Assembly: GCF_013085255.1 (NCBI RefSeq)
Contig: NZ_JABFCX010000002.1
Location: 496,001-560,000 of the forward strand
DNA length: 64,000 bases
Direction: 5' to 3'
DNA from: Parvularcula mediterranea
GTDB taxonomy: Bacteria; Pseudomonadota; Alphaproteobacteria; Caulobacterales; Parvularculaceae
Below, piece after piece: positions 39,717 through 60,602 of the stretch. Within the stretch, counting starts at the first letter, position 1. Every line of letters starts with the position of its first letter. The position numbers and the translations under genes are program-made. The notes below the pieces were generated by a model. The model had not been told where the DNA came from. It saw nothing but the letters and a program-made list of their open reading frames with translations, and ran no database searches.

Positions 39717-39840
39717 ACCTCTCCCTTGGGAGAGGTCCAAATCTCCGATTTGGGGAGAGGGGTTTCGGCGCCGGGTCAATGCCCAACCGCACCCGCCCCT
39801 CTCTCGGCATCAAAGATGCCGGTCTCTCCCAAGGGAGAGA
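39717..39840 (+). repeat. palindromic repeat element, copy A
   Basis: Composite of imperfect palindromes: ACCTCTCCCTTGGGAGAGGT (39717-39736), CCAAATC/GATTTGG, GGCATCAAAGATGCC (39806-39820) and TCTCTCCCAAGGGAGAGA (39823-39840). The same modules recur at 44075-44202 and, in the opposite orientation, inside glyS at 59022-59138. The element ends against the GGAGG of the next gene. Confidence 0.75.
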
Positions 39841-39853
39841 CGGAGGCAGCAGA

Positions 39854-44074: not shown

Positions 44075-44202
44075 CCACCTCTCCCTCCGGGAGAGGTCGA
44101 AGGCTGCGCCATCAGGCTTCGGGTGAGGGTCTGGAAACGCTACGCCCTCGCCTGCCCTCACGCGGCATCAAAGATGCCGACCTCTTCCGGTGGGAGAGGT
44201 CA
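44075..44202 (+). repeat. palindromic repeat element, copy B
   Basis: CCACCTCTCCCTCCGGGAGAGGTCGAAGGC region (44075-44131), then GCCCTCAC, GGCATCAAAGATGCC (44164-44178) and GACCTCTTCCGGTGGGAGAGGTC (44179-44201). Both halves closely match the copy in glyS, but the two modules are in swapped order. It is not followed by a T-tract, so it is probably not a terminator. Confidence 0.75.
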
Positions 44203-45886: not shown

Positions 45887-46329
45887 CCAGAAAGAAGCTC
45901 GTTTCGAAATGCTTGTTCTAGTGCCCGGGGCTTGAAATTTTCGAACCCAGCGTGGACATCGAACGGCAATTTCAAGTCGGATACCCACCCAATCTGCGAT
46001 AAGCCCTACTAGGCACCATATGGCCTGAACTAATCTATATTGGGTGATCGATGTCCCCCGCCGCAGCGGACTTAAGCAAGGCAGCGGCCCTGTCTTGGGA
46101 AGGACCAATCTCGCCGACTTCCTTTAATATCTTGATATAGCATTCACAGGCGACAGCTCAGGCCCCGCCCGCCCCGAAATGACAGCAAGCACTTATGCCC
46201 CCACCCCTTCGATCCTTTACACTCCCACCATCGAGCAGACTGCAGGAGGTCAGGATCCGTCGTCTGGCGCTCTGTTCGTGTCGGGACTGTCCGTCTTCGG
46301 ACTGCCTCCGCTCGCGGGAGCGCACCAAC

Positions 46330-46557
46330 GCGCTCAAATAGCGAAGCGGTAGCGCAGATAAAAACGAAGAAGCACGGACGTTCGGAGGGCGTGAGCTAGG
46401 GATTGGCCGTTCACCGAACAGCAGGCAGACCCGGCCCATGCGCGCGGTCGGCCCTGGAAAGCCTCATGCCGCAGCACAGAACAAAAAGATCCAACGCTGC
46501 GACAGCCGCGCGCGTGGTTCCTTCTTTCTAAGCGCTACCGCTTCGCCACTTGAGCGC
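46330..46557. repeat. 26-bp inverted repeats flanking a 176-bp spacer
   Basis: The 26-bp sequence at 46330-46355 (starts GCGCTCAAATAGCG) and the reverse complement of 46532-46557 agree at 24 of 26 positions. No transposase-like ORF lies between them. Could be ends of a degraded small mobile element. Confidence 0.55.
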
Positions 46558-46566
46558 GGCGGGCGC

Positions 46567-46701
46567 CTAGCCGTGCCGACCTCTCCGTTTTCCCGGAAAG
46601 CCGAAGGCTTATCCGGGACCCATGGACTGACTTCCCCACGCAGAGAAACAGTCAGTCCATGGGTCCCGGCTCTCCCTCCGCTCGGCCGGGAAAACGGCTA
46701 G
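46567..46701. repeat. nested palindrome, 135 bp
   Basis: A perfect 20-bp inverted repeat, 46613-46632 (CCGGGACCCATGGACTGACT) and 46650-46669, loop 17 nt. It is enclosed by CCGTTTTCCCGG (46585-46596)/CCGGGAAAACGG (46686-46697) and by CTAGCCGT (46567-46574)/ACGGCTAG (46694-46701). No T-run follows. This could form a large cruciform. Confidence 0.8.
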
Positions 46702-58250: not shown

Positions 58251-60602
58251 TTAGCCTTCGAGCCGTTCGAAATCGGCTACGTCTTGTACGATGGTTTTGA
58301 AACGCAAGAGTTGCGCCAAGCGGTTTTCCCGCACGTTTTTGGAGTCTGCGTTCACGGTGACGGCGTCGAAATAGGCGTCCAGAACAGGACGCACCTCCGA
58401 AAGTTCACGCATTGCCGAGGCGAAGTCCTCGTTTTCGATGTGTTTCTTCGCTTCTGGGCCTGCCTTGTCCAAGGCAGCGGCGAGGGCGCGTTCCTCGTCC
58501 TGTTCGTAGAGGCCTGCGTCCGGTTCTGGGGCAGGCAGCGGGCCTTTCTTGGCCTCGGCCTTCAGAATATTCGCCGCGCGCTTGTAGGCGGCGGAGAGGT
58601 CGGCGCCCTCCGATGTGTCTAGGAATTCCGAGAGGGCTTTGAGCTTCTTTTCGATGAGGACGAAGTCGTCGGCCCCTTCGGTCAACGCAGCCGCCACGCG
58701 GTCATGGCGGAAGCCCTGATCACGGAAATAGACGGTCAGGCGATCGTGGAAGAAGGTGAGGAGGTCGGCTGCAGAGCGACGGATAAAACCGTTGATAAAA
58801 GGCTGGCTTCCTTCTGGGAACGATGAGCGATACTTCTCAGCTATTGCCTGCATGGTGGCGTCGTAGGATCCCGCTCCCACGTTTGTAATGAAGTAACTCC
58901 ACTCTCGCTGTTTGGCTTCAATCTCTTGCTGGATCGCCGCATCAGCTTCTCGACTACGCTGTTGTGCAACGTTTGCTGCGATTTGTCGTTCGGCGGCCTT
59001 GAATATCTGGAGGCGCAGCCCGCCCTCACCCGAAGCCGCTGACGCGCCTTCGACCTCTCCCGAGGGAGAGGTGGAGGAAGCGCTACCGTCTACCTCTCCC
59101 ACCGGGAGAGGTCGGGATCTTTGATCCCGGGTGAGGGCATCACCCAGCACCATGCGGATGACCGCCAGCGCCGCCCTTCTCAGCGCAAACGGGTCGCGCG
59201 AGCCGGTCGGCTTCTGGTCGATGCTCCAGAACGCTGCCAGCGTGTCGAGCTTGTCAGCCAAACTCACCGCCACGCCGATTTCGTTCGTGGGCAGATCGTC
59301 CGACTGCCCGGCGGGCTTGTAATGGTCGCGGATGGCGTCGGCGATGGCTTGGTCTTCGCCCTGCTCCATCGCGTAGTAGCGGCCCATGAGGCCCTGCAGC
59401 TCAGGGAATTCGTAGACCATTTCCGAGGCGAGGTCCGCCTTGGCGAGGCGGGCGGCGCGCTCGGCCTTGTCGGGGTCGGCGCCGCAGGCAGGAGCGAGCT
59501 CGCGCGCCAGGGCTGCAACCCGCTCGACCTTGTCTGCAATCGTACCGAGGCCTTCGAAGAAGGTCGTCCCGGAGAGCTTCTTGGCGTGCTCCTCCAGCGG
59601 CTTCTTGAGGTCGTTCTGGTAGAGGAAGAGCGCGTCGGACAGCCTGGCCGTCAGGACCCGTTCGTACCCTGACATCATCCACGCATCCTCGACGATGTCG
59701 GCAACGCAGATGAACCTCGGCGCGAGGCGTCTTGTCTTTGGGTCGCGTACGGAGAAATATTTCTGGTGCCCGCGCATCGCCGCGGTGATCACCTCGTCGG
59801 GGAGCGCCAGGAACTTCTCGTCGAAGCTGCCCATGTGCGGCAGCGGCCATTCGGCAAGGCCCGTCACCTCTTCGAGGAGGCCCTTGTCTTCGACGAGTTC
59901 CAACCCCTGCCCTTTGCAGAGGTCGCGGGCGCGGGTCAGGATGCGGTCGCGGCGATCCTCACCGCGGAGCATGACCTTGCCGTCGGCGAGTACGCGCTCA
60001 TAGTCGGCAAAGTCCGTGGCGACGCCTTCACCCTGCCCCAGAACACGGTGGGTCTCTGTCGTCAGCCCGGCCTCGACCGGCTGGCTGCCGTTCTCGAGGC
60101 TGAACGGCACGGCCTTGCCGTCAAAAGCCATCAGCACACGGCGTAAGGGACGGATCCAGCGCAGGTCACCATCGCCCCAGCGCTGGGACTTGGGCCAAGG
60201 GAAATCGGTGATTGTCGTCTTCAGGGCCTCGCCGAGGACTTCGGTCGTCGCGCGGCCCTTTTTCTCGATGATGGCGACGTAGACCTCGCCCTTCTTGGTC
60301 TCCTGGATTTCAGCCTCGGAGATGTCCTTGAGCCCTGCGCCGCGAAGGAAGCCTTCGATAGCCTTCTCGGGCGCACCGACCTTGGGACCTTTTCGCTCTT
60401 CGCGAAGGTCCGGCGAGGTCTCGGGCAGCCCGTCGATCTTCAGAGTCAGACGGCGGGGGCCGTAGAAAGTTTCCGCTGCCTCCCACTCGAGATTCGCCTC
60501 CTTGAGGCGCGTGGTCATCAGCCGCTCGAGGTCCGCTGCTGCACGGGCCTGAAGACGGGCGGGGATTTCTTCGGAGAAGAGCTCGAGGAGAAGTTGCGCC
60601 AT
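58251..60602 (-). CDS. glyS: glycyl-tRNA synthetase beta subunit with two insertions
   Basis: 783 aa, about 90 longer than the usual GlyS. The N-terminus (LLLELFSEEIPARLQARAAADLE) and core (LPDEVITAAMRGHQKYF, SLADKLDTLAAFWS, GSRDPFALRRAALAVIRM) are standard. Residues 489-527 are encoded by an in-frame 117-bp palindromic repeat. Removing them restores IRMVLGDGLRLQIF, the expected continuation. Residues about 535-608 form a second, lower-GC insert before the conserved DLLTFFHDRLTVYFRDQG. The C-terminal anticodon-binding part is intact. The alpha subunit gene glyQ is not adjacent. It pairs with GlyQ to charge tRNA-Gly. Confidence 0.93.
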   Translation of the reverse strand: MAQLLLELFSEEIPARLQARAAADLERLMTTRLKEANLEWEAAETFYGPRRLTLKIDGLPETSPDLREERKGPKVGAPEKAIEGFLRGAGLKDISEAEIQETKKGEVYVAIIEKKGRATTEVLGEALKTTITDFPWPKSQRWGDGDLRWIRPLRRVLMAFDGKAVPFSLENGSQPVEAGLTTETHRVLGQGEGVATDFADYERVLADGKVMLRGEDRRDRILTRARDLCKGQGLELVEDKGLLEEVTGLAEWPLPHMGSFDEKFLALPDEVITAAMRGHQKYFSVRDPKTRRLAPRFICVADIVEDAWMMSGYERVLTARLSDALFLYQNDLKKPLEEHAKKLSGTTFFEGLGTIADKVERVAALARELAPACGADPDKAERAARLAKADLASEMVYEFPELQGLMGRYYAMEQGEDQAIADAIRDHYKPAGQSDDLPTNEIGVAVSLADKLDTLAAFWSIDQKPTGSRDPFALRRAALAVIRMVLGDALTRDQRSRPLPVGEVDGSASSTSPSGEVEGASAASGEGGLRLQIFKAAERQIAANVAQQRSREADAAIQQEIEAKQREWSYFITNVGAGSYDATMQAIAEKYRSSFPEGSQPFINGFIRRSAADLLTFFHDRLTVYFRDQGFRHDRVAAALTEGADDFVLIEKKLKALSEFLDTSEGADLSAAYKRAANILKAEAKKGPLPAPEPDAGLYEQDEERALAAALDKAGPEAKKHIENEDFASAMRELSEVRPVLDAYFDAVTVNADSKNVRENRLAQLLRFKTIVQDVADFERLEG
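59022..59138 (-). repeat. in-frame palindromic repeat inside glyS, copy C
   Basis: 117 bp with terminal inverted repeats GCCCTCACCCG (59022-59032) and CGGGTGAGGGC (59128-59138). Inside are two GACCTCTCC...GGGAGAGGT palindromes (59052-59072 and 59092-59112) and GGGATCTTTGATCCC (59115-59129). Read in the glyS direction it encodes 39 hydrophilic residues (residues 489-527, ALTRDQRSRPLP onward). Related to copies A and B. Confidence 0.88.

Follow-up and report, generated by a model that had tools for sequence, protein, structure and literature searches.

How did a palindromic repeat come to lie in frame inside the gene of a presumably essential synthetase, and why was it tolerated there? This question is raised by glyS of Parvularcula mediterranea, found at 58251-60602 on the minus strand of the window, by which we mean the whole stretch of 64,000 nucleotides that was analysed. 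The gene encodes the 783-residue beta subunit of glycyl-tRNA synthetase (GlyRS), in which both the beta-subunit domain (PF02092, residues 4-490, 1e-173) and the anticodon-binding domain (DALR_1, residues 671-771, 1.7e-8) are present. A sequence-only reading of the window had placed in it, at 59022-59138, a 117-bp palindromic repeat of 39 codons with matching 11-bp ends, and our analysis shows the element to be real, correctly placed and beyond chance. It extends exactly from the first base of codon 489 to the last base of codon 527 and leaves the 783-residue frame uninterrupted, having no stop codon in the glyS frame and a length divisible by three. Its ends, GCCCTCACCCG and CGGGTGAGGGC, are perfect 11-bp inverted repeats, and inspection of the junctions by eye shows no target-site duplication. 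On the whole, the element (no strand assigned) consists of two inverted units with their tails (GGGTGAGGGC) outward, namely a first unit of 51 bp (59022-59072, minus strand; C1:555022-555072 in the genome) and a second unit of 47 bp (59092-59138, plus strand), which score 58.3 and 68.6 bits to our covariance model R1, respectively, and which are separated by a spacer of 19 bp (59073-59091, no strand assigned). The second hairpin of the second unit is CGGGATC/GATCCCG, whereas most short-form copies carry CGAAATC/GATTTCG.

As RNA of the mRNA strand, the element has a predicted folding energy of -88.7 kcal/mol, whereas shuffled sequences average -49.8 (z -10.3) and none of 200 falls as low. A closed hairpin of such strength is what one would look for if the palindrome were left untranslated, either because ribosomes bypass the hairpin or because the RNA loses it; however, the reading frame runs through the element without a stop, as it does through the excised loops of relatives, and we consider this explanation very improbable. 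Most likely, the element is translated as a disordered linker of about 39 residues.

The repeat unit has 46-56 bp and two hairpins, a head (ACCTCTCCC..GGGAGAGGT) and a second one (CGAAATC..GATTTCG, or a longer version), together with a tail (GGTGAGGGC). These hairpins are kept by compensatory changes: among 34 aligned units both sides change in 6 of 16 pairs, and the covariation score is reached by none of 500 shuffles, which are a guide only, because the units are related to each other. In the number of further pair types the units do not surpass shuffled ones (295 of 500). The genome-wide search that the sequence-only reading had proposed does bring up other copies. BLAST of the element against the 3.2-Mb genome returns 85 matching pieces at E up to 10, among which overlaps and hits to one place on both strands are frequent. 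With R1, 49 units score 37 bits or more, spread over 33 places. Among these places, 14 hold pairs with heads outward (+/-), 17 hold single units, and two hold pairs with tails outward (-/+), one being the glyS element itself. The other tails-outward pair (C1:1465691-1465790; L193:1692-1791) is located between a thioesterase-like ORF and an ORF resembling a transhydrogenase subunit, both named by eye. Two related elements had been noticed elsewhere in the window and both are real, each with heads outward (+/-) and no strand assigned: that at 39717-39841 is located upstream of a GNAT acetyltransferase domain, and that at 44077-44200 is crossed only by open frames of at most 65 aa. The window also has inverted repeats of different sequence at 46585-46697 (48-nt arms, 17 nt apart) and 46329-46558 (34-nt arms, 162 nt apart).

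Taking the genomes together, R1 has matches at E ≤0.001 in 27 of 37, the own genome included, with 1 to at least 149 matches per genome, where the counts in copy-rich genomes are lower bounds. In P. maris, a member of the same genus, there are at least 147 units at E up to 1e-8 compared with 49 in the own genome, and in 31 of its 35 close pairs the heads point outward. One repeat unit of P. maris is found about 50 bp upstream of glyS, outside the gene (G003:C4:173067-173123; L032:1392-1448), and the GlyS loop of this genome is identical to that of the named locus L090. Membership in an Rfam family was dropped, with no match in the window at the gathering cut-offs. A RAYT transposase (PF01797) is matched in 6 of the 37 genomes, and the match in the copy-rich P. 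maris is weak; the own genome has none, the control being positive in 5 of 14, and RAYT mobilisation within the own genome was rejected on this result. Of the earlier description of the repeat as mobile or dispersed, dispersal therefore stands, and mobility is suggested by the presence and absence of copies, in a genome with no RAYT match.

The position of the copies relative to genes was then read from open frames that cross the 33 places or a number of weaker matches, and those of at least 130 aa were picked out. The glyS copy lies in an open frame of 791 codons with Pfam domains on both sides, and is the sole such copy among the crossing frames scanned. In the Pfam scan of 18 crossing frames of at least 130 aa, two gave family matches (GNAT and NDUS4), the repeat being upstream of the domain in both. 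At C1:1465691, C1:1721091 and C2:534564 the crossing frames are long; from inspection of the ORFs by eye, not from annotation, these copies are taken to lie between or beside genes. A count of in-frame insertions, also proposed by the sequence-only reading, thus yields one of 33 places, glyS, inside a gene with recognised domains among crossing frames of at least 130 aa; it is to be read as the only one found, the genome being without annotation.

The gene without the element can be viewed in close relatives, and an alignment of relatives with and without residues 489-527 gives the junction as it had been claimed. Here it reads VLGD-[element]-GLRLQIF, and at the same point the sister genome G005, which is 80% identical over residues 1-490, reads VLENDLRLNV and the genome G002 reads VLENGLRLSL; the sister genomes examined are all without the element at this point. 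The claim that its removal restores a family-like GlyS is right for the local motif (VLGD|GLRL compared with VLENGLRL) but not for the protein as an ordinary GlyS, since 86 residues without relatives in the sets searched follow. This species-specific rest of the loop (58764-59021, minus strand) comes directly after the element, with a GC content of 0.54 compared with 0.63 for the gene, and has no match among the loops compared. A second genomic copy was considered as its source, and none was found in the genome. Because the loop of G005 has just 25 aa, more than the element separates G005 from the own genome.

The genome search finds one GlyRS beta gene and one glyQ, and no dimeric GlyRS above the cut-off (best 21.6 bits, cut-off 243.3). 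With one glyQ and no dimeric enzyme above the cut-off, the GlyS carrying the element probably has to work. The element thus sits, as had been claimed, in the only GlyRS beta gene found, the essentiality of which is presumed. Compared with three sister genomes, the 200 codons upstream of the loop have dN/dS of 0.06-0.10 (dS 0.8-1.6), and this flank is under purifying selection.

The site of insertion itself is quite different from what had been implied. The element falls in a hypervariable loop, residues 484-616 (58755-59153, minus strand), bounded by DPFALRRAALAVIR and FFHDRL. An insertion into an otherwise conserved part of the enzyme is contradicted by the variability of this loop in the order as well as in Rhodobacterales, and unrelated linkers in relatives, which the sequence-only reading had named as evidence that would tell against it, are to this extent half borne out. 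Loops were excised by motif from 46 of 59 loci in the order-level set and from 137 of 139 in a larger set, and the 137 loops vary from 17 to 170 aa with a median of 85. Two genomes are present twice among the 137 (L032/L090 and L034/L091) and each was dropped once for the comparison of pairs, with 133 loci remaining. Among the order-level loops, 10 of 46 match the loop of another genome, several of them over the start motif only, and the window's loop matches none. Between DPFALRRAALGVIR and FFHDRL the loops often hold unrelated sequence of low GC3, even where the flanks are nearly identical (L119/L148, L103/L111 and L114/L156), and Pfam domains were matched in the loops only below the cut-off, a result that leaves L034:1200-1500 out of account.

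A fold search gives GlyRS structures as the top matches. In the alignment to E. coli GlyRS (7yse), residues 484-616 correspond to about residues 490-526. Arg482 and Arg531 of the E. coli enzyme contact the acceptor stem of the tRNA, as described in the available part of the report (PMC9908026). By our own match in the 7yse alignment these are R476 and R621 here, one flanking each side of the loop, and the loop would accordingly be placed between helices whose E. coli counterparts touch the acceptor stem. In the AlphaFold model, residues 494-535 have pLDDT below 50, helices of low confidence are predicted at 528-575 and 580-594, and better confidence begins from about residue 611.

The 79 named loci, mostly Rhodobacterales according to their record titles, divide into 48 with a loop of a common type, 27 whose loop stands alone and 4 whose loops make up two pairs. 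Where the flanks are at least 90% identical, the loops fail to match each other at E 1e-3 in half of the named-locus pairs (18 of 36) and in two of three order-level pairs. These pairs favour a view of the glyS loop as an exchange cassette under diversifying selection, escaping for example a phage protein or toxin that binds GlyRS, where recombination would swap whole loops and the palindrome would be part of the exchange or its means. The 18 pairs are not independent, however: Ruegeria alone accounts for 13 of them, and in 4 both partners are common-type loops that have diverged from each other. The pair L119/L148 points to exchange as well: its flanks are 97.3% identical with an upstream dS of 0.49, yet the loops, of 116 and 90 aa, have in common just a start motif of 15 residues (E 0.032), with sharp nucleotide borders after LVLENGVR and before LLS. 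A quick tree of the flanks requires loops to switch 19 times between the common type and any other type, and starred branches force 10 or more of these switches. The label for loop type nevertheless shows clustering on this tree beyond that of shuffled labels, with 4 and 1 of 500 shuffles scoring as low, which speaks against the exchange of cassettes.

Composition can be read in two ways. Loops outside the common type have a GC3 of 0.49 compared with 0.72 in the upstream flank and are lower in 31 of 31 cases, while common-type loops have 0.68 compared with 0.74 and are lower in 32 of 48; in the order-level set, loops of at least 40 aa have GC3 below their own flanks in 38 of 39. The values of the two classes are in favour of exchange. 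Low GC3 in itself also fits drift to mutational equilibrium, as would be seen if the loop were simply unconstrained, with neutral indels and substitutions turning over its sequence and palindromes being one random source of it. The low AlphaFold confidence in the loop is consistent with such turnover, and so is the range of loop lengths, from which it follows that a long loop is not needed everywhere. In all 13 usable close pairs the median dN/dS is 0.24 for the loop, with values up to 0.97, and 0.22 for the flank, near values that again agree with an unconstrained loop, although flank dN exceeds 0.1 in several of these pairs, probably through indels in the ungapped flank comparison, so that the flank dN/dS is inflated. 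On the other side, six close pairs of the common type (at least 80% loop identity) have loop dN/dS of 0.07-0.17, by which the common loop is constrained in those pairs, in agreement with exchange and not with neutrality. For four near-identical pairs the neutral expectation is 0.57-0.64 nucleotide identity, but their loops have no protein match at E 1e-3, with short matches or none. For these reasons we regard purely neutral turnover of an unconstrained loop as rather unlikely. The exchange of cassettes under diversifying selection lacks a donor among the sources searched, namely the own genome, phages and plasmids for the window's loop and phages for one Ruegeria loop, and we know of no partner or attacker of the loop; it deserves attention as a possibility, with a probability clearly below even. 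A phage or plasmid origin of the window's loop, and a phage origin of the one Ruegeria loop, were rejected on the same absence of matches.

Palindromes are not restricted to the window's loop. Inverted repeats above all 100 dinucleotide shuffles are detected in 3 of 46 loops, those of G029, G002 and the window (12 compared with 11 for the window). With 60 base shuffles and an ungapped score over the 137 loops, four are above all shuffles (G029, G002, L151 and L124), and the window's loop only ties (12 compared with 12). L151 and L124, both from Rhodobacterales, are above these 60 base shuffles by a small margin. Searches for repeats in the own genome covered three loops, those of the window, G002 and G029. 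The G002 loop has the same design of head, hairpin and tail, with weak matches to R1 (21.3 and 19.3 bits) and unit matches at four other places, all in one contig. The G029 loop has a different palindrome, with two other genomic copies at 76% and 72% identity, and this palindrome presumably resembles a repeat common in other Alphaproteobacteria. Because long open frames cross several of the G002 copies and one of the two other G029 copies, we do not claim these copies as intergenic. The presence of other palindromes in the same loop of these two Parvularculaceae supports separate captures. Extending this, one may tentatively picture the loop as an exchange site within an essential enzyme in many Alphaproteobacteria, where orphan segments of low GC replace one another under selection for novelty, and where dispersed palindromes supply part of the raw material, three species showing them before they have decayed into ordinary-looking protein; we consider this broader picture doubtful.

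Several known repeats can be compared with the glyS element. With REP/BIME sequences it has in common short imperfect palindromic units, occurring single or as inverted pairs in many copies; as to the extragenic position of REP/BIME, none of the other copies could be placed inside a recognised gene of this genome, which is without annotation, while the glyS copy is inside a gene. REPINs accompany RAYT (Y1_Tnp) transposases, and in this respect the own genome differs, with no match to PF01797. Palindromic intergenic repeats are also found in Alphaproteobacteria as the RIME of Rhizobium. Wolbachia belongs to a different order and has a different way of life from Parvularcula. Protein-coding palindromic repeats have been reported from it (reference in PMC2229807), and by the title of that reference alone we liken them to the glyS element, both being protein-coding, palindromic and alphaproteobacterial. 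The CIR repeats of Caulobacter and Brucella are likewise alphaproteobacterial palindromes; in the available part of the report (PMC2229807) they have an exposed GANTC motif and are not found in genes, whereas the GlyS element has no GANTC when read by eye and is inside a gene. The palindromic elements of Rickettsia are described in the same part of that report (PMC2229807) as dispersed, 105-146 bp long, with terminal inverted repeats, and located between genes as well as in frame inside conserved genes. Their size and inverted ends are alike to ours (117 bp, 11-bp ends, z -10.3), and by this description the glyS element would act like them, a likeness that makes no claim of family membership. 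The parallel drawn earlier thus holds for the kind of event, not for its spread over genes, since many conserved genes are hit in Rickettsia and glyS is the sole in-gene place found of 33. In enterobacteria, the small mobile repeats RU-1, RU-2 and RU-3 contribute reading frames that are joined in frame to those of genes; in the available part of the report (PMC2759123) such fusions affect C-terminal regions, and none is located in the sequence of a conserved domain. Unlike these, the insert here is in the middle of a protein, between two domains, in a hypervariable loop. In-frame palindromic repeats are therefore already known from Rickettsia, Wolbachia and the enterobacterial RU. Among the leading matches in the open-licence literature, none reports GlyS palindromes, hypervariability of the GlyS loop or its replacement.

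Taking all parts as one joint reading, we hold it to be very probable that a REP/BIME-like element was captured by a loop which tolerates in-frame insertion and replacement, and that it is probably translated as a disordered linker. The element would be non-autonomous, an inverted pair of the two-hairpin unit of 46-56 bp that is scattered through Parvularculaceae genomes. One such copy would have landed between glyS codons 488 and 489, where the loop starts, behind the helix that corresponds to one touching the acceptor stem in E. coli. The insertion may have been made by an enzyme or by template switching, and the move into glyS would have taken place after the split from the sister species. 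The element would have been kept because it is a multiple of three, is stop-free in frame and fell in a loop that tolerates very different sequences. Its product of about 39 residues would loop out of the HD domain with little effect on catalysis, tolerated perhaps because the loop points away from the tRNA. Since relatives repeatedly fill the same loop with unrelated sequence, the insertion is probably tolerated and not disruptive.

What is added here to the in-frame repeats of other lineages is a reason for the insertion site, that is, a loop of a presumably essential synthetase which is replaced again and again in the groups examined. This repeatedly replaced loop is the more surprising part of the finding, and a stronger lead than the element itself. 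The glyS gene thus offers a natural system in which to study the entry of new protein sequence into essential enzymes, and also to ask whether a phage protein, a toxin or a partner drives diversity between two tRNA-contacting helices.
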